Part shown: piece after piece, positions 3,658-40,472 of the stretch
Layout: the number at the start of each line of letters is the position of its first letter
Position numbering within the stretch: the first letter of the stretch is position 1
Notes under the pieces: model-generated
Database searches by the model: none
Told to the model about the DNA's origin: nothing
Seen by the model: only the letters and a program-made list of their open reading frames with translations
Program-made: the position numbers and the translations under genes
Origin: Micromonospora parva
GTDB taxonomy: Bacteria > Actinomycetota > Actinomycetes > Mycobacteriales > Micromonosporaceae
DNA: 64,000 bases
Direction of reading: 5' to 3'
Assembly: GCF_000718515.1 (NCBI RefSeq)
Contig: NZ_JNZS01000007.1
Location: forward strand, 124,001 to 188,000

Positions 3658-4680
3658 TCATGGTCGTGCCGCGCTCGTCGGTGGTGCGGTCGAGCTGCGC
3701 ACGACGAGGTTGGTCGGGAGCACGATCTGGCGTGGCTCGTCCCACTCGCCGGTCACCAGTGACTTCAGCATCCGGGCGGCTTCGTACCCGAGCTGGTACA
3801 TCGACTGGTCCACAGTGGTCAGACCCGGCTCGGTCAACGCCGACTCGGGAATGTTGTCGAACCCGACGACGGACAGGTCCCCCGGAACGGAGAACCCCAA
3901 CTCGCGGGCGACCTCGAGGACCTTGAGGGCCATCCCGTCGCTCGCCGCGAAGATCGCCGATGGCGGGTCCGGTCGTTGCAGCAGAACCCGCGCCAGGGGG
4001 GTCGCCGACTCCGGGTTGAAATCCCCTCGACCGATCAGCGACGGATCGACCGGCACGCCGGCGGCGGTCAGCGCGGCCCGGTATCCCTCCTCCCGCGACC
4101 AGGCCGAGGCCAGACTGTCGCGCCCGGCGATGAACCCGATGCGCCGGTGGCCCAGCCCGAGCAGGTGCTCGACAGCTGTGGTGGCGCCCGCAAGGTTGTC
4201 GGCCATCACCGACGGCGCCGTCGAGCCCCGCACCGGGTCGATGGCAACGACCGGCGTGCGGCTGCGGACCTCACCCCAGGGCGTGACGACGATGCACCCG
4301 TCGGTGAGGGTGCCGGACAGCCGGGTGAGGTGCCGCTGCTCCCAGCCCTCCGAGTAGGAGCCGTAGAGGTCGCTGTTGGCGTAGATGATCAGATCGAAGC
4401 CGGAGCGGCTCAGCGCCTTCATGACGCCCTTGAGCACCTCTGCCGTGTACGACTGGAAGCTGTGCGCGACGAGACCCAGAACGTTGGTGCGGCTGCGCCG
4501 AAGGCTGGTGGCCACCAGACTCGACTCGTAGCCGAGTTGGTCGATGGCGGAGCGGACCTGAGCGACGGTGCGAGCGCTGACGCCGTAATGCCCGTTGACG
4601 ACGCGCGAGACGGTGGCGGTGGAAACGCCGGCGACTCGGGCGACATCACTCATTGTTACCGGCGTATTGGCTTCAATCAT
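3658..4680 (-). CDS. LacI-family transcriptional regulator
   Basis: 340 residues. The N-terminal helix-turn-helix reads MSDVARVAGVSTATVSRVVN, followed by the hinge region and a periplasmic-binding-protein-like effector domain (GLVAHSFQSY, HRRIGFIAGR, SAIFAASDGMALKVLE, VVGFDNIPES). The ATG at 4680 has an AGAGAG site; an internal ATG at 4653 begins exactly at the HTH and is an alternative. It stands between the two-module esterase and the GH3/GH51 pair, so it is the likely repressor of arabinoxylan genes, released by a sugar. LacI-type sites at 4710-4723 (own promoter) and 7468-7481 (GH3/GH51 promoter) fit autoregulation and local control; binding itself is inferred. Confidence 0.93.
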   Translation of the reverse strand: MIEANTPVTMSDVARVAGVSTATVSRVVNGHYGVSARTVAQVRSAIDQLGYESSLVATSLRRSRTNVLGLVAHSFQSYTAEVLKGVMKALSRSGFDLIIYANSDLYGSYSEGWEQRHLTRLSGTLTDGCIVVTPWGEVRSRTPVVAIDPVRGSTAPSVMADNLAGATTAVEHLLGLGHRRIGFIAGRDSLASAWSREEGYRAALTAAGVPVDPSLIGRGDFNPESATPLARVLLQRPDPPSAIFAASDGMALKVLEVARELGFSVPGDLSVVGFDNIPESALTEPGLTTVDQSMYQLGYEAARMLKSLVTGEWDEPRQIVLPTNLVVRSSTAPPTSAARP

Positions 4681-30908: not shown

Positions 30909-31802
30909 TCAGGCGGCGACGGCCGCCCGGACGTCGTCGTCGGCGTCGCGCAGCCGGGCCGCGGCCTCCTCGGCGGTGCAGTTCGCCAGCAGCAGCACGA
31001 TGGCCGTCTTGGCGTGCCCGCGCGCCGCCGCGAGCGCCCGCGCGGCGGTGTCCAGGTCGGTGTCGGCGGCCTCGGCGACGATCCGACGGGCCCGGTCGAC
31101 GAGCTTCTCGTTGGTGGCGTTCATGTCCACCATCAGATTGCCGTAGACCTTGCCCAGCCGGGCCATCGCGGCGGTCGACAGCATGTTGCAGACCAGCTTC
31201 TCGGCGGTGCCGGCCTTGAGCCGGGTGGAGCCGGTGAGCACCTCGGGCCCGGTGGGCACCTCGATGGCGACGTCGGCGTGCCGGCTGGTCACCGCGTCGG
31301 TGTTGCAGGCCACCGAGACGGTCGCCGCGCCGCGCGCGCGGGCGTGGTCCAACCCGCCGACCACGTACGGGGTACGGCCGCTGGCGGCGAGCCCGACCAC
31401 CGTGTCGCGGGCGGTCAGGCCGACCGCGTCGAGGTCGGCGACGGCGCGGGTCGGGTCGTCCTCGGCGCCCTCGACGGCGACACCGAAGGCGCGTGCCCCG
31501 CCGGCGAGCAGCCCGACGACCCGATCGGGCGTGGTGCCGAAGGTGGGTGGGATCTCGACGGCGTCGAGCATGCCGATCCGGCCGCTGGTGCCCGCGCCGA
31601 GGTAGATCAGCCGTCCGCCCTGGCGTAGCGACGCCACGATGACGTCGACGGCGGCGGCGATGTCCGGCACGGCCCGGCGGACGGCCTCGGCGACCGTCTG
31701 GTCCTCGTCGTTCATCGCGAGAAGCAACTCGGTGGGAGACATCCGGTCGAGGTCGCTGGTCTTGTCGTTGCGGGTCTCGGTGCCGAGGGTGCTGAGGTCC
31801 AC
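30909..31802 (-). CDS. murQ: N-acetylmuramic acid 6-phosphate etherase
   Basis: 297 residues from GTG 31802 (AGGA site about 11 bases upstream). SIS-domain enzyme: DLSTLGTETRN and DLDRMSPTELLLAMNDED at the N-terminus, LIYLGAGTSGRIGMLDAVEIPPTFG with the catalytic Glu in V-E-I-P-P-T-F, VVGLAASGRTPYVVGGLDHARARG, and TGSTRLKAGTAEKLVCNMLSTAAM, all standard MurQ signatures. It splits MurNAc 6-phosphate into GlcNAc 6-phosphate and D-lactate in the cytosol. Divergent from the symporter-anmK-dehydrogenase operon, whose products supply its substrate and consume its D-lactate. Confidence 0.96.
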   Translation of the reverse strand: MDLSTLGTETRNDKTSDLDRMSPTELLLAMNDEDQTVAEAVRRAVPDIAAAVDVIVASLRQGGRLIYLGAGTSGRIGMLDAVEIPPTFGTTPDRVVGLLAGGARAFGVAVEGAEDDPTRAVADLDAVGLTARDTVVGLAASGRTPYVVGGLDHARARGAATVSVACNTDAVTSRHADVAIEVPTGPEVLTGSTRLKAGTAEKLVCNMLSTAAMARLGKVYGNLMVDMNATNEKLVDRARRIVAEAADTDLDTAARALAAARGHAKTAIVLLLANCTAEEAAARLRDADDDVRAAVAA

Positions 31803-32063
31803 GGGGTGCTCGTTCCTCTCGCTGGTGTGCAGTCGCCGGCCGGCGGGGCGCGGATCTCCGGTCGCCCGGCGGCCCGGGACGGCTCGTCGTCGAGCGCGTC
31901 CTCGCGACCCGCCGCCACGGCCAGGCCGCGGCGCAGCTGCGAACAGTCCCCGTATCAGCAGGCTGAAACCACAGCGTAACCAGCCCGGCCGGGCGGTGGC
32001 AAAAAGTTTCGCGTTACCCTGGTCCAACGTCACTTCTTGACAATCGCTGGTTGGGAGCGAGCC

Positions 32064-33623
32064 GTGCGTCAACTCGACCTCGTCGTGATCGTGCTGTACC
32101 TCGTGGTGATCGCCTTCGTCGGACTACGCCTGTCCGGCAAACAGAAGTCCGCCAAGGACTACTTCGTCGGCGAGGGCCGACTGCCCTGGTGGACCGTCTC
32201 GTTCTCCGTGGTCGCCACCGAGACCAGCGTCCTGACCGTGATCAGTGTTCCCGGCGGCGCCTACAGCGGTCAGGGCTTCGGCAACGTCGAGCTGGCCCTG
32301 GGTTACGTCATCGGTCGGGTCGTCGTGGCCGCGGTGCTCATCCCGCTGTACAAGCGGGGTGGGTTCGTCAGCGCCTACCAGTACCTCGGTGAGCGGTTTG
32401 GCCTGAAACTCCAGGGTCTGGCGTCGGTGACGTTCGTCTTCACCCGCCTGCTCGCCGAGGGCGTACGGCTGTTCGCCTCGGCCATCCCCATCAAGCTGCT
32501 CCTCGACGAGTTCGGGCTGAACGTCAGCTACCAGGCCATCATCATCGTGCTCACGCTCATCACGGTGGTCTACACCTACCTCGGTGGCATCAAAGCGGTC
32601 ATCTGGACCGACGCCATCCAGATGGGGCTGTACCTGGGTGGGGCGATCCTGGCCATCGCGGTGCTCAGCCACGCCGTCGGCTTCGACGGCTACTCGCAGG
32701 CATTCGACGCCGGCAAGTTCCAGCTCTTCGACACCAACTTCGACCTCGCGCACGTGCTCACCAGCCCGTTCGCCCTGCCGACCGCGATCATCGGTGGCGC
32801 GATCTTCGCGATGGCCAGCCACGGGTCGGACCAGCTGATCGTCCAGCGCATCCTGTCCACCCGGACGCTGCGCGAGGGGCAGCAGGCGATGATCTCCTCG
32901 GGCATCTTCGTGGTGATCCAGTTCGCGGCGTTCTCCCTGGTCGGGGCGCTGCTGTGGTCGTACAACAAGGGTCAGAGCTTCAAGGAGCTCGGCCTGGCCA
33001 GTAGCGACAACCTCTACCCGAGCTTCATCCTGCACGCTCTGCCGGTGGGCATCTCGGGTCTGCTGGTGGCCGGCATCCTCGGCGCCGCGATGGGTTCGCT
33101 GTCGTCGGCGCTGAACTCGATGTCGAACTCCACCGTCGCCGACTTCATCCACAGCTTCTTCCGCACGGTCCCGTCGGACGACGTGATGCTCCGGCTCGCC
33201 CGGGTGATGACCCTGGTCTGGGCGGTGCTGATGGCGGTCTTCGCCTGCGCGTTCAGCTCCAGCACCGGAAACGTCTACCTGACCGGTCTGACCATCGCCG
33301 GCTACACCTACGGCGCACTGCTCGGGGCCTTCCTGCTCGGCCGCCTGGTCAAGCGGGCCAACCAGGTCGACGCGGTGATCGCCTTCCTGGTCACCGTGGC
33401 GGTGATGACCTACATCGTCCGCTACGTCAAGATCGATGTGACGACGGCCGGGACCACCACCGCCACCGCCATCGCCGCGCAGTGGCTGGTCCCGATCGGC
33501 GTCCTGATCACCCTGGTCGTCGGCGCGGTGTCGAGCCGGTTCCACCCGGCCCCGGAGACGCCGTACGACCATGGACGCACCGACGAGGTCGACGAGACGG
33601 CAGCGCCCGCCGGCCGGGCATGA
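32064..33623 (+). CDS. Sodium/solute symporter (SSS family), candidate amino-sugar importer
   Basis: 519 residues from GTG 32064 behind GGGAG. About 13 helices; family signatures SVVATETSVLTVISVPGGAYSGQGFGNVELALGYVIGR, YTYLGGIKAVIWTDAIQM and the conserved ASHGSDQLIVQRILS are present. Substrates of this branch include sugars, sialic acid and other solutes carried in with sodium. It is divergent from murQ and only 11 bases before anmK, so a muropeptide sugar (MurNAc, anhydroMurNAc or a disaccharide) is the most reasonable cargo. That is inference from position; the family alone does not identify it. Confidence 0.9.
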   Translation: MRQLDLVVIVLYLVVIAFVGLRLSGKQKSAKDYFVGEGRLPWWTVSFSVVATETSVLTVISVPGGAYSGQGFGNVELALGYVIGRVVVAAVLIPLYKRGGFVSAYQYLGERFGLKLQGLASVTFVFTRLLAEGVRLFASAIPIKLLLDEFGLNVSYQAIIIVLTLITVVYTYLGGIKAVIWTDAIQMGLYLGGAILAIAVLSHAVGFDGYSQAFDAGKFQLFDTNFDLAHVLTSPFALPTAIIGGAIFAMASHGSDQLIVQRILSTRTLREGQQAMISSGIFVVIQFAAFSLVGALLWSYNKGQSFKELGLASSDNLYPSFILHALPVGISGLLVAGILGAAMGSLSSALNSMSNSTVADFIHSFFRTVPSDDVMLRLARVMTLVWAVLMAVFACAFSSSTGNVYLTGLTIAGYTYGALLGAFLLGRLVKRANQVDAVIAFLVTVAVMTYIVRYVKIDVTTAGTTTATAIAAQWLVPIGVLITLVVGAVSSRFHPAPETPYDHGRTDEVDETAAPAGRA

Positions 33624-33634
33624 AGGAGGACGTG

Positions 33635-34807
33635 ATGCGCGTGATCGGCCTGATGTCCGGAACCTCCTACGACGGCATCGAAGCCGCCGCCGCCGACCTC
33701 GACCTCAGCGGTGACACGCTGCGGATGCGAACGCTGGGTCGGCTCAGTCACCCGTACCCCGAGCAGCTGCGCACCCGGATCGCCGCCGCCCTGCCGCCCG
33801 CCCCGACCACCACCGAGGCGATCTGCGTGTTGGACACCGGCATCGGCCAGGCGTTCGCCGAGGCTGGCGTGCGGGCCCTCGCGGAACTCTGCGATGGCCA
33901 CGCCGACCTGCTCGTCTCGCACGGGCAGACCATGCACCACTGGGTCGAGGACGGCACGGTGCGTGGCACCCTCCAGCTGGGTCAGCCGGCCTGGATCGCG
34001 GAGGCCACCGGTCTTGCGGTGGTGGCCGACCTGCGCAGCCGCGACGTCGCCGCCGGCGGCCAGGGTGCCCCCCTGGTCGCCCTCTTCGACGCGCTGCTGC
34101 TGGGCGGCCTGCCCGGCGTCCCGGCCGCCCTGAACCTGGGCGGCATCGCCAACATCACCGTCGTCGCGCCGGACGCCGACCCGCTCGCCTTCGACACCGG
34201 CCCGGCCAACGCGCTCCTCGACGCCGCCGCCCGCCACTTCAGCGGAGGCACCGAGCACTACGACCGGGACGGACGCGGGGCGGCCGCCGGGCAGGTGAAC
34301 CTGGCCCTGCTGCGGCGACTGCTCGACGAGCCGTACTACCGGCTGCCCAGCCCGAAGAGCACCGGCAAGGAGCTGTTCCACACGCCCTACCTGCTGGCCG
34401 CCCTCGCCGACGCGCCCACCCCGGACCCGCAGGACGTGCTGGCCACGCTCACCCGACTGACGGCGGCCACGGTGGCCGACGCCTGCCGCGATCACGGCGT
34501 CACCCGGCTCGTCGTCTCCGGCGGCGGGGCGCGCAATCCGACGCTGATGCGCATGATCGCCGACGAGCTGCCGGACGTCGACCTGTCGTCGAGCGACGAC
34601 CTGGGCATCGCCTCGGACGCCAAGGAGGCGTTGGCCTTCGCGCTGCTGGGCTACCTGACCGTGCACGGGCTGCCGGGCACCCTGCGCTCGGGCACCGGCG
34701 CGCGGCACCCGTCCGTACTCGGCAGCATCACGCCCGGCCGGCAGCCGCTACGGCTGCCCGCGCCGGTCAGCACCGCTCCCAACCGGCTACAGATCGTCGC
34801 CGACTGA
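33635..34807 (+). CDS. anmK: Anhydro-N-acetylmuramic acid kinase
   Basis: 390 residues from the ATG behind GGAGG. Signatures: RVIGLMSGTSYDGIEAAAADL at the N-terminus (nucleotide loop), LVSHGQTMHH, LGQPAWIAEATGLAVVADLRSRDVAAGGQGAPL, ALNLGGIANITVV, AFDTGPANALLD and LVVSGGGARNPTLM. It phosphorylates 1,6-anhydroMurNAc with ATP and opens the anhydro ring, giving MurNAc 6-phosphate for MurQ. It follows the symporter by 11 bases and precedes the dehydrogenase by 27, so the three are an operon. Confidence 0.96.
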   Translation: MRVIGLMSGTSYDGIEAAAADLDLSGDTLRMRTLGRLSHPYPEQLRTRIAAALPPAPTTTEAICVLDTGIGQAFAEAGVRALAELCDGHADLLVSHGQTMHHWVEDGTVRGTLQLGQPAWIAEATGLAVVADLRSRDVAAGGQGAPLVALFDALLLGGLPGVPAALNLGGIANITVVAPDADPLAFDTGPANALLDAAARHFSGGTEHYDRDGRGAAAGQVNLALLRRLLDEPYYRLPSPKSTGKELFHTPYLLAALADAPTPDPQDVLATLTRLTAATVADACRDHGVTRLVVSGGGARNPTLMRMIADELPDVDLSSSDDLGIASDAKEALAFALLGYLTVHGLPGTLRSGTGARHPSVLGSITPGRQPLRLPAPVSTAPNRLQIVAD

Positions 34808-34834
34808 CCGCCCCCTCGCCCGGGAGGATCGCCC

Positions 34835-37702
34835 ATGAGCACCGCCGTACCCGCGCCAACCTCGGCCGGCGTCCGCGCCCGTGCGGTCGCCGAACTGCTG
34901 CGCGCGCGCCTCGATGATCCCAGCCGGGCCAGCGCCGAGCTGCCCCGGAGGCTGGCGGCGGCACACGACGCCTCGCCGTACCTGTTCGAACCGCAGGCTG
35001 TGGTCCGCGCCGCCTCGGCGGCCGAGGTCGGGGCGTTGATGGCCGGCGCCCGGGAGGCCGGCGTGTCGTTGACCCTGCGCGGCGGTGGCACCAGCCTCGC
35101 CGGGCAGGCCGGCGGCGCCGGCGTGCTGGTCGACGTCCGCACCGACTGGCGGCACGCCGAGGTCCTCGACGACGGCTGGCGCATCCGGCTGCAACCCGGC
35201 CTGACGATCCGGCAGGCCAACGCCCGGCTGGCCCGCTACCGACGCCGGCTCGGCCCGGACCCGGCCAGCGAGGCCGCCTGCACCGTCGGTGGCATGGTGG
35301 CCAACAACTCCAGCGGGATGACCTGCGGCACCACCGACAACGCGTACCGGACGATGGAATCGCTGCGCTTCGTGCTCCCGTCCGGCACCGTCGTCGACTC
35401 CGGCGCCCGCGACGCCGACGACCGGCTGCGGACCGACGAGCCCGAGCTGCACGCCGGGCTGCTGCGGCTGCGCGACCGGGTGCGCTCGACGCCGCAGTCG
35501 CGCGCCACCGTCGAGCGGCTGTTCGCCATGAAGAACACCATGGGGTACGGGCTGAACTCGCTGCTCGACCACGACAGCCCGGTCGAGATGCTCGCCCACC
35601 TGATGATCGGCAGCGAGGGCACGCTCGGTTTCGTGGCCGAGGCCGTCTTCCGGACCGTCGAGATCCACGACCACGCCGCCACCGGCCTGCTGATCCTGCC
35701 CGGTCTCACCGCCGCCACCGACGCGCTGCCCGCCCTGCTCGCCGCCGGCGCCCGTACCGCCGAACTGCTCGACGCGGCAGCGCTGCGGGTCAGCCAGCGC
35801 GACCCGGGTGCGAGCCCGGCCCTGCGCGGGCTGACGGTCACCGGCCACGCCGCGCTGCTGGTCGAGTTCACCGAGGAGAGCGCGGAGCGGCTGGCCGCGA
35901 CGCTGGCCGACGCCCGGGTAGTCCTCGACCGGCTGCCGGCCGTCGCGGGCACCGAGCTGACCCGCGACCCGCGCGAACGGGCCCAGCTCTGGCACCTGCG
36001 CAAGGGCCTCTACACCGCCGTCGCCGGTGCCCGCCCGCCCGGCACCACCGCCCTGCTGGAGGACATCGCGGTGCCGATGCCACGGCTGACCGGCACCTGC
36101 GACGGGCTGATCCGTCTGTTCGACAGGCACGGCTACCCGGACGCGGTGATCTTCGGGCACGCCCGCGACGGCAACCTGCACTTCATGCTCACCCAGTCCT
36201 TCGACACCGCTGCCGAGATCGAGCGCTACGCCCGGTTCACCGACGACATGGTCGACCTGGTGCTGGCCGAAGGGGGCACCCTCAAGGCCGAGCACGGCAC
36301 CGGCCGGGCCATGGCACCCTTCGTCCGGCGGCAGTACGGCGACGAGCTGTACGACGTGATGCGCGAGCTGAAGCGGTTGTGCGACCCGACCGACCTGCTC
36401 AACCCCGGCGTCCTGCTCAACGACGACCCGACAGTGCACCTGCGGCAGCTCAAGGCCGTGCCGACCGTCGACCCCGAGCTGGACGCCTGCGTCGAGTGTG
36501 GCTACTGCGAGCCGGTCTGCCCCACCGCCGACGTCACCACCACCCCCCGGCAGCGCATCGTCCTGCAACGACAGATCGCCCTCGCCACCGCCGCCGGCGA
36601 CGAGGAACGCCGCCGGGAACTCACCGCCGACTACGCGTACGCAGCTGTGGACAGCTGCGCCGCCGACAGCCTCTGCGTCACCGCCTGCCCGGTCGGCATC
36701 GACACCGGGGCGGCGATGAAGCGGCTGCGCGCCGAGCGGCACAGCCCACGCGCCCAGCGCACCGCCCGCACCGCCGCACGGCACTGGCAGGCCGCCGTGA
36801 CGGGCGTCCGGGTGGGACTGACCGCCGCGCACGCCGTACCGGCGCCGCTGACCCGCGCCGCCACCGGGGTGATCCGAGGGCTCGGCGGGACCGAACTCAT
36901 GCCGCTGTGGAGCGACGACATGCCGCGCGCCGGTGCGCCCCGCCCCGCGCCCCGCAGCGAGCCGGACGCCCGGGCGGTGTTCTTCGCGGCCTGCGTCGGC
37001 AGCCTCTTCGCTCCCGAGGACGGCCGGTCCGGCGGAGCGGCTACGGCGTTCCTGCGCCTCTGCGAACTGGCCGGAGTCCCGCTGGTCGTACCGACCGGAA
37101 CAGCGGGCCTGTGCTGCGGAACCCCGTGGCAGTCCAAGGGCTACCCCGCCGGGCACCGGGAGATGGCCGAACGGACCCTGGCCGCGCTCTGGGCGGCCAG
37201 CGACGAGGGCCGGTTGCCCGTCGTCTGCGACGCGTCGTCCTGCACGCACGGGCTCACACAGCTGACCGCCGCGCTGGCCGAGGAGGATCGGGCCCGCTAC
37301 GCCGGCCTGCGCGTCGTCGACAGCGTGAGCTTCACCGCCGAGCACCTCCTGCCGGCGCTGCCGCAGCCCCGGCGACTGCGCTCGCTGGCCCTGCACCCCA
37401 CCTGCTCCACTGTGCACCTGGACGGCATCGACGACCTGCGCACCGTGGCCCGGGCGGTCGCCGACACCGTCACCGTGCCGGACAGCTGGGGGTGCTGCGC
37501 CTTCGCCGGTGACCGGGGGCTGCTGCACCCCGAGGTCACTGCCGGTGCCACGGCGGCGCAGGCCACCGAGATCAACCAGCGCGGCCACGACGCGTACGCC
37601 TCCAGCAACCGCACCTGCGAGCTGGGCATGAGCCGGGCCACCGGGCAGTCGTACCGGCACGTGCTGGAGGTGCTCGTCGAGGCCGTCGAGCCGCCGGCGT
37701 AA
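34835..37702 (+). CDS. FAD/Fe-S D-lactate (D-2-hydroxyacid) dehydrogenase, GlcD-GlcF fusion type
   Basis: 955 residues from ATG 34835 (GGGAGG site). N-terminal PCMH-type FAD domain (LTLRGGGTSLAGQAGGAGVLVDVR; GGMVANNSSGMTCGTTDNAYRT), FAD-linked oxidase C-terminal domain (GHARDGNLHFM, AEHGTGRAMAPFV), then two 4Fe-4S clusters (CVECGYCEPVCP near 550; SLCVTACPVG near 610) and two CCG-type domains (GLCCGTPW, GCCAFAGDRG). This layout is shared by Dld-II D-lactate dehydrogenases and YdiJ-type D-2-hydroxyglutarate dehydrogenases. D-lactate is favoured because MurQ, encoded next door, releases it. Electrons would pass to quinone at the membrane. Confidence 0.87.
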   Translation: MSTAVPAPTSAGVRARAVAELLRARLDDPSRASAELPRRLAAAHDASPYLFEPQAVVRAASAAEVGALMAGAREAGVSLTLRGGGTSLAGQAGGAGVLVDVRTDWRHAEVLDDGWRIRLQPGLTIRQANARLARYRRRLGPDPASEAACTVGGMVANNSSGMTCGTTDNAYRTMESLRFVLPSGTVVDSGARDADDRLRTDEPELHAGLLRLRDRVRSTPQSRATVERLFAMKNTMGYGLNSLLDHDSPVEMLAHLMIGSEGTLGFVAEAVFRTVEIHDHAATGLLILPGLTAATDALPALLAAGARTAELLDAAALRVSQRDPGASPALRGLTVTGHAALLVEFTEESAERLAATLADARVVLDRLPAVAGTELTRDPRERAQLWHLRKGLYTAVAGARPPGTTALLEDIAVPMPRLTGTCDGLIRLFDRHGYPDAVIFGHARDGNLHFMLTQSFDTAAEIERYARFTDDMVDLVLAEGGTLKAEHGTGRAMAPFVRRQYGDELYDVMRELKRLCDPTDLLNPGVLLNDDPTVHLRQLKAVPTVDPELDACVECGYCEPVCPTADVTTTPRQRIVLQRQIALATAAGDEERRRELTADYAYAAVDSCAADSLCVTACPVGIDTGAAMKRLRAERHSPRAQRTARTAARHWQAAVTGVRVGLTAAHAVPAPLTRAATGVIRGLGGTELMPLWSDDMPRAGAPRPAPRSEPDARAVFFAACVGSLFAPEDGRSGGAATAFLRLCELAGVPLVVPTGTAGLCCGTPWQSKGYPAGHREMAERTLAALWAASDEGRLPVVCDASSCTHGLTQLTAALAEEDRARYAGLRVVDSVSFTAEHLLPALPQPRRLRSLALHPTCSTVHLDGIDDLRTVARAVADTVTVPDSWGCCAFAGDRGLLHPEVTAGATAAQATEINQRGHDAYASSNRTCELGMSRATGQSYRHVLEVLVEAVEPPA

Positions 37703-37761: not shown

Positions 37762-38685
37762 TCAGGACAGGGCGATGTCGCTGTAGTAGTAGCGCAGGAT
37801 CGCCTGGTAGGTCTTGCCCTGGTTGGCGAGGTCACGCGAGCCGTACTGCGACAGCCAGTCCCCGTCCACCCAGCCACCGCACGCGGTCGTCGTCGCGCAG
37901 TAGTGCGCCCGCAGGATGTTGCCGTTGCGGGTCATCCGGGCCGACCAGGTCCGGTCCACCGCGGCGGACGTGGACGAGACTGCCGTCGACGGCCGGTAGA
38001 CCTGGTCGCCGGTGTCGTCCCGGACGTCGTAGCACTGTCCACCGGACGTCTTCCGGGTCGAGTGCAACGCCCAGTACCAGCCGTAGCTCTTGACGGCCAT
38101 CGCACCGGCGTCCAGCGAGGCGGCCGGCCAGCTCGTGATCCACTCGTTCGGGAGGACGTTCTTGACGTACGTCTTGAAGTCGACCCGATCGACGCGCCCG
38201 AGGCTGACCCGGTACACGAGGATCGTGCTCGGCAGCTTGGTGTTGGTGCCGTCGGTGCTACAGCCCGTCGCCCCGCTCACCAACTCGTGCGAGGCGTTGT
38301 TGTTCTTCAGCGTGGCGTTGAGGTTTGCCATAGCGCCGGCTGCGAAGTCCTGGTAGGAACCGGCGAAGTTGCTGTTGAAGTAGACCCGCACCGTCTTGCC
38401 GGTCCGGTTCCACACCGACGCGGCGTTGTTCTTCACGCACAGGCCCTTGCCGCTGCCCGCGCCCTTGAAGTCGTAGCAGGTCGGCTGGGTCGTGCCGTAA
38501 TCATCGAGCGAGTCGGTGAAGTCGGAGACCGAGCCGGCCTGGTCGCTGTTGTAGTAGTAGCAGAACTCGCCGCTGTCGCAGGTTCCGTCCCGTCCCGCCG
38601 CCGCTGCCGGCGAGGCGACACTCAGGATGGAGGTGGACATGGCGAGGACGGCGCCGACGACGGCGAGGCCCTTGCGAAAATTCAC
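37762..38685 (-). CDS. Secreted I36-like module fused to SpoIID/LytB domain
   Basis: 307 residues from a GTG start with GGTAGGA upstream. Signal peptide 1-30 (ends SPAAAAG). Residues 30-130 resemble peptidase inhibitor family I36/beta-gamma-crystallin-like modules (SGEFCYYYNSDQAGSVSDFTDSLDDYG, CVKNNAASVWNR, VRVYFNSNFAGSYQDFAAG). The rest is a SpoIID-type domain (LGRVDRVDFKTYVKNVLPNEWITSWPAASLDAGAMAVKSYGWYWAL). SpoIID proteins cleave peptide-free glycan strands; LytB-like ones enhance amidases. The N-terminal module is nearly identical to that of the next gene upstream, from which it is separated by 6 bases. Confidence 0.82.
   Translation of the reverse strand: MNFRKGLAVVGAVLAMSTSILSVASPAAAAGRDGTCDSGEFCYYYNSDQAGSVSDFTDSLDDYGTTQPTCYDFKGAGSGKGLCVKNNAASVWNRTGKTVRVYFNSNFAGSYQDFAAGAMANLNATLKNNNASHELVSGATGCSTDGTNTKLPSTILVYRVSLGRVDRVDFKTYVKNVLPNEWITSWPAASLDAGAMAVKSYGWYWALHSTRKTSGGQCYDVRDDTGDQVYRPSTAVSSTSAAVDRTWSARMTRNGNILRAHYCATTTACGGWVDGDWLSQYGSRDLANQGKTYQAILRYYYSDIALS
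38282..38685 (-). repeat. Duplicated I36-module coding segment, copy 1
   Basis: This segment and 39173-39576 encode near-identical signal peptides and I36-like modules. At the DNA level the edge is sharp: 44 bases are identical (38282-38325 and 39173-39216), and beyond this edge the sequences are unrelated. Confidence 0.85.
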
Positions 38686-38691
38686 GGCGTC

Positions 38692-39576
38692 CTACCTCTC
38701 GTTGTAGCCCTGGGAGTTCCAGAACGCGGTCGGGTCGGCGTTGTCCAGGGTGGGGTCGCCGACGCTGACGGCCGCGTGGGTCTGCCGGCCGGCCCGGACC
38801 TCGACGTGGGTGTGCGCGCCCGAGCTGGAGGACACCCCGTGCCACGACTCGTCGGCGATGATCTGGCCCTTGCTGATGGCGTCGCCCACGCTCACCCCGG
38901 ACCTCGGCGCGGTGTGCAGGTAGATCACCGTCTTGTTGAGCGAGGAGTTGTAGACGGAGATCGTGGACAGACCGCCGCTGCCGGTGGCGCCCCGCGCCAC
39001 GTAGGTGACAGTTCCGGAGACCAGGGCACGCACGTCCGAGCCGACGCTGCGGGCGATGTCGATGCCCTCGTGCCGGCCCGGCGTGGTGGTGTAACCGTCG
39101 AAGGCGCAGGTGACCGAGCCGCCGCTGGCCTGGTACAGCGCGTACGACAGGTTCGTGCGCGTCGACGGCGAGAACTCGTGCGAGGCGTTGTTGTTCTTCA
39201 GCGTGGCGTTGAGGTTGCCCTTCGCGCCGGCCGCGAAGTCCTGGTAGGAACCGGCGTAGCCGCTGTTGTAGTAGACGCGCACGGTCTTGGTGCTGCGGTT
39301 CCAGACCGAGGCGGCCTCGTTCTTGATACACAGGCCCTTGCCAGCGCCGGCGCCCTTGAAGTCGTAGCACGAGGGCTGCTCGGTGCCGTAGTCGTCGAGC
39401 GAGCCGGTGAAGTCCGAGACCGACCCCGCGTTGTCGCTGTTGTAGTAGTAGCAGAACTCGCCGCTCTCGCAGACCCCGTCTCGGGCCGCCGCCGACGCGG
39501 GCGATCCGACGCTGAGGATCGAGGTGGTCGCGGCCAGCGCGACGCCGACGGCCGCAAGGCTCTTCCGGATGTTCAT
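38692..39576 (-). CDS. Secreted I36-like module fused to M23 peptidase
   Basis: 294 residues from an ATG with AGGA four bases upstream. Signal peptide 1-30, I36-like module 30-135 as in the downstream neighbour, then a lysostaphin-type M23 domain: GRHEGIDIA (zinc His and Asp), VRALVSGTVTYVARGATGSGGLSTISVYNSSLNKTVIYLH and HTHVEVR (second His pair). It should cut peptide bridges of peptidoglycan outside the cell, with the module perhaps serving wall binding or self-inhibition. Middle gene of a three-gene cell-wall operon. Confidence 0.88.
   Translation of the reverse strand: MNIRKSLAAVGVALAATTSILSVGSPASAAARDGVCESGEFCYYYNSDNAGSVSDFTGSLDDYGTEQPSCYDFKGAGAGKGLCIKNEAASVWNRSTKTVRVYYNSGYAGSYQDFAAGAKGNLNATLKNNNASHEFSPSTRTNLSYALYQASGGSVTCAFDGYTTTPGRHEGIDIARSVGSDVRALVSGTVTYVARGATGSGGLSTISVYNSSLNKTVIYLHTAPRSGVSVGDAISKGQIIADESWHGVSSSSGAHTHVEVRAGRQTHAAVSVGDPTLDNADPTAFWNSQGYNER
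39173..39576 (-). repeat. Duplicated I36-module coding segment, copy 2
   Basis: Partner of 38282-38685. The shared part covers the signal peptide and I36-like module only and ends at codons for KNNNASHE, after which one gene continues into SpoIID and the other into M23. Confidence 0.85.
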
Positions 39577-39608: not shown

Positions 39609-40472
39609 TCACTGCCCGCGCTGGTACTGCTCCCAGGTCCTGATCGGGACCTGGGGGCCGTCGTCCGGACCCTGGTTGGCCAGACCGTTCAGGCCCAGGT
39701 AGTAGTCGCCGACCTGGTGCTGCGCCTGACTGGACAGGTCCGTGTCGTTGATCGCGGCGGCGTGGATGTGCCACGGCCAGTCGCCCTGATCCGGGTTGCG
39801 GACCCAGGCGGCGAAGCCGACCTGGCGCAGGGCCCGGGCAACTGCGGTGCGCCTGGCCGCGGTCATGCCGGTGACCGCGATGTCCACCACACCCCCGCCG
39901 TCGTGCGTACCGGCCGAGGTGGGGTCGCCGCCGGGGTTGTACGAGCCCTGGTCGAGCACCAGGGGGTAGCCGAGCAGCCGCTGCGCCTGCGCCAGCATCG
40001 CCTGGGTACGGGCGTTGACGACGTACCCGTCGCGCGGGACCTTCGCGCCCGGGCCGATCGTGTTGACGACGGTGTAGCGGTTCTGCCCGAGCTTTGTCAG
40101 CGACGTCGTGCCGGGCAGCCCGTTCGCGGCCAGCCCGGTGTAGCCGAGCGTGCGTTGGTACGCGGCGTACGCCGAGATGGTCACGGTGCCGAAGTAGCCG
40201 TCGACCCACTGCGCGTTCAGCAGGCCCTGCGCCTGCAACGCCTGCTCGACGGCGAGCACGGAGCTCTTCGCGCCCGGGGTGAGGGTGTTGTCGGGCCGAC
40301 GGGGGTCGATCTGGGCGGCCAGGACGGTGGCTTCCATGTCCACGACTGGCCGCACGGCCGTGGTGACGGTTCGCTGCGCGGTGGTGCCGGATGTGGCGGC
40401 CCACGCGTGGGCCGGGACCCCGACGGCCACGCAGAGCGCGGCGAGCCCGACGGATAACCACTGACGACGCAC
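39609..40472 (-). CDS. Secreted peptidoglycan-binding protein with M15-type peptidase-like domain
   Basis: 287 residues. Signal peptide to about 25 (ends AHAWAA). A PG_binding_1-like helical domain (SSVLAVEQALQAQGLLNAQWVDGYFGTVTISAYAAYQRTLGYTGLAANGLPG) is followed by a domain with the M15 (VanY/D,D-carboxypeptidase-like) zinc pattern: THDGGGVVDIAV (His and Asp) and WPWHIHAA (His). It probably trims peptidoglycan stem peptides. First gene of the operon with the M23 and SpoIID genes (32-base and 6-base gaps); GTCAG repeats lie upstream. Confidence 0.83.
   Translation of the reverse strand: MRRQWLSVGLAALCVAVGVPAHAWAATSGTTAQRTVTTAVRPVVDMEATVLAAQIDPRRPDNTLTPGAKSSVLAVEQALQAQGLLNAQWVDGYFGTVTISAYAAYQRTLGYTGLAANGLPGTTSLTKLGQNRYTVVNTIGPGAKVPRDGYVVNARTQAMLAQAQRLLGYPLVLDQGSYNPGGDPTSAGTHDGGGVVDIAVTGMTAARRTAVARALRQVGFAAWVRNPDQGDWPWHIHAAAINDTDLSSQAQHQVGDYYLGLNGLANQGPDDGPQVPIRTWEQYQRGQ

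Follow-up and report, generated by a model that had tools for sequence, protein, structure and literature searches.

The reactions of MurQ, the N-acetylmuramic acid (MurNAc) 6-phosphate etherase, and of AnmK, the anhydro-N-acetylmuramic acid (anhydroMurNAc) kinase, are established at the family level. Here we analyze a locus that combines the genes for both enzymes with a symporter gene and a dehydrogenase gene, in a 64,000-nucleotide stretch of the Micromonospora parva genome (contig NZ_JNZS01000007.1, positions 124,001 to 188,000; hereafter, the window). The murTKQ operon of Tannerella forsythia is alike in that a MurNAc transporter of the sodium symporter superfamily is encoded beside a sugar kinase and MurQ; however, the Tannerella kinase is MurK, acting on MurNAc, whereas the window kinase is AnmK, acting on 1,6-anhydroMurNAc, and the accessible portion of the source names no dehydrogenase in the operon, whereas the window cassette encodes one (PMC5790795). 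The window symporter is likened to the Tannerella transporter, MurT, by gene company, not by sequence. In the Escherichia coli murQ operon, MurQ is also accompanied by a dedicated importer, with murR in the divergent orientation, and a MurR/RpiR-type gene is shared with the Streptomyces form of the cassette described below. That operon differs in that the importer belongs to the phosphotransferase system, PBP4B is encoded in the operon, and, as far as the available part of the description goes, no D-lactate dehydrogenase is named (PMC5061867).

The D-lactate arm has a counterpart in Corynebacterium glutamicum engineered for growth on MurNAc, where the D-lactate released by MurQ also needs Dld; that strain, which differs in carrying an artificial E. 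coli murP-murQ set, accumulated lactate, which more dld might prevent, according to its authors in the part of the report available (PMC6165865). The native dld of C. glutamicum occupies, according to the accessible text, a separate genomic island (PMC3022706). In the portions of these sources at hand, the D-lactate derived from MurQ is left to enzymes encoded apart; here, gene order in more than one lineage appears to couple its oxidation to the sugar pathway. A literature search on murQ, anmK, and D-lactate dehydrogenase, with subscription journals mostly outside its coverage, yielded no description of such a cluster. The cassette is a variant of the known MurNAc operons; new are the cassette itself, its recurrence, and a conserved element within it, the enzyme name, D-lactate dehydrogenase, being already in use in some automatic records.

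The four genes likely comprise a self-contained salvage cassette for the muramic acid sugar of peptidoglycan that includes the oxidation of D-lactate. The original prediction had grouped these genes, with 27 bases between anmK and the dehydrogenase gene; all four were located where it placed them, and the distance from the anmK stop codon to the dehydrogenase ATG at 34835 is indeed 27 bp. The features of the locus are as follows:

30909..31802, minus strand: murQ, MurNAc 6-phosphate etherase (matches to TIGR00274 and 4s12)
32000..32042, plus strand: operator-like conserved element CAAAAAGTTTCG-N17-GTCACTTCTTGACA in the gap between murQ and the symporter gene (conserved pattern)
32064..33623, plus strand: sodium/solute symporter (SSS) family protein, 519 amino acids, proposed (anhydro)MurNAc importer (TIGR00813, PF00474)
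33635..34807, plus strand: anmK, anhydro-N-acetylmuramic acid kinase, 390 amino acids, alternative start at 33620 (NF007146, PF03702)
34835..37702, plus strand: flavin adenine dinucleotide (FAD)/Fe-S D-2-hydroxyacid dehydrogenase, Dld-II type, 955 amino acids, proposed D-lactate dehydrogenase

The divergent murQ and symporter genes probably start with GTG codons at 31802 and 32064, respectively, 261 bp apart; anmK starts at 33635 or at the overlapping ATG at 33620, and the dehydrogenase ATG is preceded by a GGGAGG-type ribosome-binding site. A promoter scan found none, and two terminator-like sites were detected vs 1.2 expected.

MurQ scores above the TIGR00274 equivalog cut-off (368.6 vs 302 bits), and its nearest solved structures are MurNAc 6-phosphate etherases (4s12, E=1.1e-88). 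The alignment with 4s12 shows that the glutamates of the DAVEIPPTF and VEGAEDD motifs, which we take to be the two catalytic residues after E. coli MurQ, are both retained. AnmK exceeds the NF007146 equivalog cut-off (619 vs 440 bits), matches PF03702 (E=8.2e-134) and AnmK structures (E ~5e-63), and is the single such match in its own genome. The symporter exceeds the TIGR00813 superfamily cut-off (186.7 vs 184 bits) and also matches PF00474, with 5nv9 as the closest solved chain (E=1.2e-47); from its gene company, we infer that it is a transporter of MurNAc or anhydroMurNAc. The dehydrogenase combines FAD_binding_4, FAD-oxidase_C, 4Fe-4S dicluster, and CCG domains in one chain, as in the Dld-II type, and its cysteines C552, C555, C558, C562, C608, C614, C618, C760, C761, C803, C857, C887, and C888 are invariant among 34 aligned sequences. 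Such a single-chain FAD plus Fe-S layout is that of the D-lactate dehydrogenase Dld-II of Shewanella and others. The Shewanella enzyme, described for free lactate use in the literature portions available, is likened to the window protein by description, not by sequence.

In the proposed pathway, the symporter would import a muramic acid sugar, AnmK would convert it to MurNAc 6-phosphate, and MurQ would convert the latter to N-acetylglucosamine (GlcNAc) 6-phosphate and D-lactate. The dehydrogenase would then oxidize D-lactate, its putative physiological substrate, to pyruvate, without D-lactate build-up, and would presumably pass the electrons into the respiratory chain as the candidate acceptor. 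GlcNAc 6-phosphate would continue via NagA, which is encoded in the same 7.1 Mb genome and scores above its model cut-off, and both halves of the sugar would reach central metabolism. The cargo is probably 1,6-anhydroMurNAc because the cassette carries AnmK as the kinase and lacks a MurNAc kinase (MurK), and so is not a murTKQ-type operon. The genome has one more full-length MurQ match, on contig C11, where murR and murQ form a pair; besides the cassette dehydrogenase, there is one weak GlcD-like protein, matched as two pieces, on C2.

The cassette genes are inherited together in Micromonospora. Among 151 genomes of the genus, whose kinship makes the counts non-independent, the cassette-type dehydrogenase, AnmK, and MurQ are found in exactly the same 23 (own genome included; MurQ among the matches listed), so the association of the four genes is more than chance. 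Own genome aside and pieces included, identity to the window proteins is 87-96% for the dehydrogenase, 85-93% for AnmK, and 91-98% for MurQ. MurQ and AnmK are encoded on one contig in all 23 genomes, and the dehydrogenase gene adjoins anmK in 21, lying on another contig in G192 and G193. The presence of the symporter across the genus was judged by the murQ-anmK gap, not by a symporter search: the gap is 1.7-2.0 kb, enough for the symporter, in 22 of the 23 genomes, and 862 bp in G193. The flanks vary while the cassette genes stay together; for example, the right-hand neighbors differ from those in the window in L129, L130, L131, L133, and L151. Another 34 genomes encode instead a relative of the dehydrogenase with 57-63% identity, and no AnmK or MurQ was found around it in six regions from five genomes (L134-L139, 19 kb each, ~8 kb per side). 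A different AnmK (53-61% identity) is present in 93 of the 128 genomes without the cassette and in none of the 23 with it. In G186, the cassette AnmK match (C4:668309-669474) is split into two pieces that overlap slightly and differ in reading frame, so the gene is either broken or mis-sequenced.

The same data bear on the possibility that the kinase and the symporter handle a plain anhydrosugar, such as levoglucosan, in which case the link to wall recycling would be wrong. Levoglucosan kinases indeed score 212.9 bits vs 216.7 for AnmK structures, but the AnmK equivalog score of 619 against a cut-off of 440 and the constant company of murQ, for which we know of no role with levoglucosan, make this explanation hardly credible.

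Beyond the genus, we scanned named genomes and retained the best 80 relatives of the dehydrogenase; the window, 19 of 20 fetched regions, and 77 of these 80 loci add up to 97 loci, in which neighbors were considered within 10 kb, or less where the available stretch was shorter. The same dehydrogenase clade is represented, at 72-78% identity, in ten Streptomyces loci and one actinomycete metagenome-assembled genome (MAG). In all 11, murQ or anmK is no farther than 10 kb from the dehydrogenase gene, which bears out the prediction, set beforehand, of co-occurrence outside Micromonospora. Ten of the 11 bring together murQ, an RpiR/MurR-type regulator, a BadF/NagK-like kinase, the symporter, anmK, and the dehydrogenase; L160 has only murR, dehydrogenase, and murQ, and in L161, a second murR and the murQ are placed after the dehydrogenase gene. 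In 24 loci, extrapolation from alignments places the dehydrogenase gene 13-146 bp after anmK. The recurrence of similar gene sets in other actinomycetes makes the proposed D-lactate step more believable.

In the dehydrogenase tree (93 of the 97 loci and nine outgroup rows), 22 cassette sequences form one clade with support of 100; the symporter is present in 20 of these (all except L149 and L160) and anmK in 21 (all except L160). Other murQ/anmK-linked sequences are placed elsewhere in the tree: L192 and L225 (Cryobacterium) and L222 (Sphaerisporangium) carry ATP-binding cassette (ABC) transporter genes, murQ, and anmK opposite murR and the dehydrogenase gene, and in L186 (Arthrobacter), 64 bp separate the end of the aligned part of murQ from that of the dehydrogenase, and a major facilitator superfamily (MFS)-like gene and anmK come next. 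In L177, a murR-murQ pair lies ~5 kb from the dehydrogenase gene, which may be a coincidence. Outside the clade, five of 71 loci have murQ/anmK neighbors, four of them both genes; by a rough estimate, not a computation, about one such neighbor or fewer would be expected. The linkage label changes four times on the tree, at least three of these changes being forced by starred branches, and none of 500 shuffles was as low (quick method). The comparative evidence supports the originally proposed link between MurNAc salvage and D-lactate oxidation, the same functions being rejoined elsewhere in the tree in the company of ABC or MFS transporters.

The predicted substrate pocket of the dehydrogenase, in the alignment and in the predicted fold, is of the D-lactate dehydrogenase (LDHD) type. 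Residues 14-528 share the fold of mouse LDHD (8jde), along with the whole glycolate-binding subsite and a hydrophobic second subsite; the solved mouse chain lacks the Fe-S half present in the window protein (PMC10589216, in the part available). In the alignment, all five residues of subsite A are identical, and the five positions inspected in subsite B are all hydrophobic, with W351, S365, I407, and V101 of mouse LDHD replaced by Tyr, Leu, Met, and Leu, respectively.

The pocket also bears on the view that the dehydrogenase is a YdiJ-like D-2-hydroxyglutarate dehydrogenase, in which case it would serve to recycle a serine-synthesis by-product and would adjoin the salvage genes accidentally. 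The dehydrogenase scores 161.9 bits against the 1350-bit equivalog cut-off of NF049975, and it has Tyr and Met at two pocket positions where YdiJ has Gly and Arg. Seven aligned actinobacterial YdiJ-like sequences also have Gly and Arg there, and an eighth has a gap; two of these sequences score 450 and 478 bits to YdiJ and so are themselves below the cut-off. Given also that E. coli YdiJ is reported, in the accessible part of the source, to have no D-lactate activity (PMC9504171), and that the murQ/anmK linkage is repeated, this view is very unlikely, and the pocket residues and the YdiJ score favor the originally claimed D-lactate type over D-2-hydroxyglutarate.

Another alternative is a broader role: the substrate would be some other small D-2-hydroxyacid, or glycolate, the enzyme would work in several pathways, and general usefulness would account for its presence in the cassette. 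Among the 97 loci, murQ/anmK are near the dehydrogenase gene in 31, a lactate permease or LutB in 17 (18 by tblastn), an FAH hydrolase or sugar-acid dehydratase in 21, and none of these classes in 28; some relatives directly adjoin lactate permease (LctP) or LutABC genes. The 21 loci of the third class suggest other pathways that release hydroxyacids, and LDHD accepts several small hydrophobic D-2-hydroxyacids, according to the available portion of the source (PMC10589216). Glycolate is disfavored by the score of 154.7 bits against the GlcD cut-off of 567.9 (TIGR00387) and by Ala, as in LDHD, rather than Tyr, as in GlcD, at the position of LDHD Ala363. Furthermore, D-lactate is the D-2-hydroxyacid expected from MurQ in the cassette, and we regard a different substrate as unlikely.

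Several observations nevertheless weigh against the enzyme being a D-lactate dehydrogenase dedicated to muramic acid salvage. The LDHD-type pocket is common to relatives in other gene contexts and, given the breadth of LDHD itself, is not diagnostic for D-lactate; in the fold ranking, human D2HGDH is only ~2 Z units under LDHD. Of the 97 dehydrogenase loci, 66 have no murQ or anmK in the available sequence, up to 10 kb. The genus has at least five further murQ-anmK pairs that lack a nearby dehydrogenase of this family on their contig. In three of these genomes, G189, G196, and G282, the dehydrogenase gene lies on a different contig; in G223, the distance is ~290 kb, and in G160, no such gene was found. 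In G223 (locus L140), ABC transporter genes precede murQ-anmK, and the stretch read contains no murR or dehydrogenase gene. No dehydrogenase was found beside the housekeeping murQ in the stretches seen. Finally, in L149 (M. arida, ~3748-4123), the symporter gene is cut down to the first codons and a tail, an assembly error being possible, and the gap in G193 is too short for a symporter. The linkage is therefore a preference rather than a requirement, and loss of the symporter is possible.

The 21 loci with dehydratase or FAH genes (L211, L168, L176, L196, and similar) form a recurrent cluster of their own, in which relatives of the dehydrogenase are accompanied by an IlvD/Edd-type dehydratase and an FAH hydrolase; an alcohol dehydrogenase and a regulator of the IclR type were also recognized there by eye. 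The cluster suggests a sugar-acid pathway that may also release a hydroxyacid.

The operator-like element CAAAAAGTTTCG-N17-GTCACTTCTTGACA is found in all 14 Micromonospora cassettes and in nine of the ten Streptomyces/MAG cassettes scanned. In the latter, it sits between murR and the kinase gene, and the L161 copy has diverged. A pattern search gave one match to the 43-bp element in the genome of M. parva, and a looser scan, allowing up to three substitutions, gave no match in L160 or in any of the 71 out-of-clade dehydrogenase loci; the ABC-type cassettes have, by eye, a related-looking inverted repeat ahead of murR. The conserved element suggests a MurR-like repressor as a putative regulator, but a murR gene is absent from the Micromonospora cassette. 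The murR-murQ pair on C11 (169056-170887) is apart from the cassette, and the palindrome in its murR promoter, GGTGAAAGTAAGTTTCACC, is different from the cassette element. A MurR-type match is present in all 151 Micromonospora genomes, and a MurQ match in 123 among the matches listed.

More tentatively, and with somewhat less than even confidence, we propose that these genes make up a dedicated actinomycete pathway for importing and burning 1,6-anhydroMurNAc. It would consist of an anhydroMurNAc-specific symporter, AnmK, MurQ, and a cassette D-lactate dehydrogenase respiring the lactyl arm, would be switched via a conserved MurR-type operator, would have been assembled more than once (with SSS, ABC, and MFS transporters), and would replace the usual stand-alone AnmK in one Micromonospora lineage. 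The cassette predicts a D-lactate dehydrogenase subfamily, a Gram-positive anhydroMurNAc symporter, and an operator. It further offers a reasoned functional assignment for proteins named 'FAD-binding and (Fe-S)-binding domain-containing protein', as many database records name close relatives of the dehydrogenase; a few name them 'D-lactate dehydrogenase'.

To the right of the cassette, on the minus strand (37762-39576), two adjacent secreted-looking proteins both have an Inhibitor_I36-type N-terminal domain, followed by a SpoIID or an M23 peptidase domain. SpoIID proteins are lytic transglycosylases, and such enzymes yield anhydroMurNAc, which makes this flank attractive as a part of the cassette. 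It was rejected as a fixed part: the SpoIID protein is found in 21 of the 151 genomes, 15 with the cassette and six without, and the gene adjoins the cassette in nine of the 15. A third secreted-looking protein is encoded beside this pair (39609-40472, minus strand); it has no Pfam match, and its C-terminus, by eye, has a His...Asp and HIH pattern like that of M15-type peptidases.

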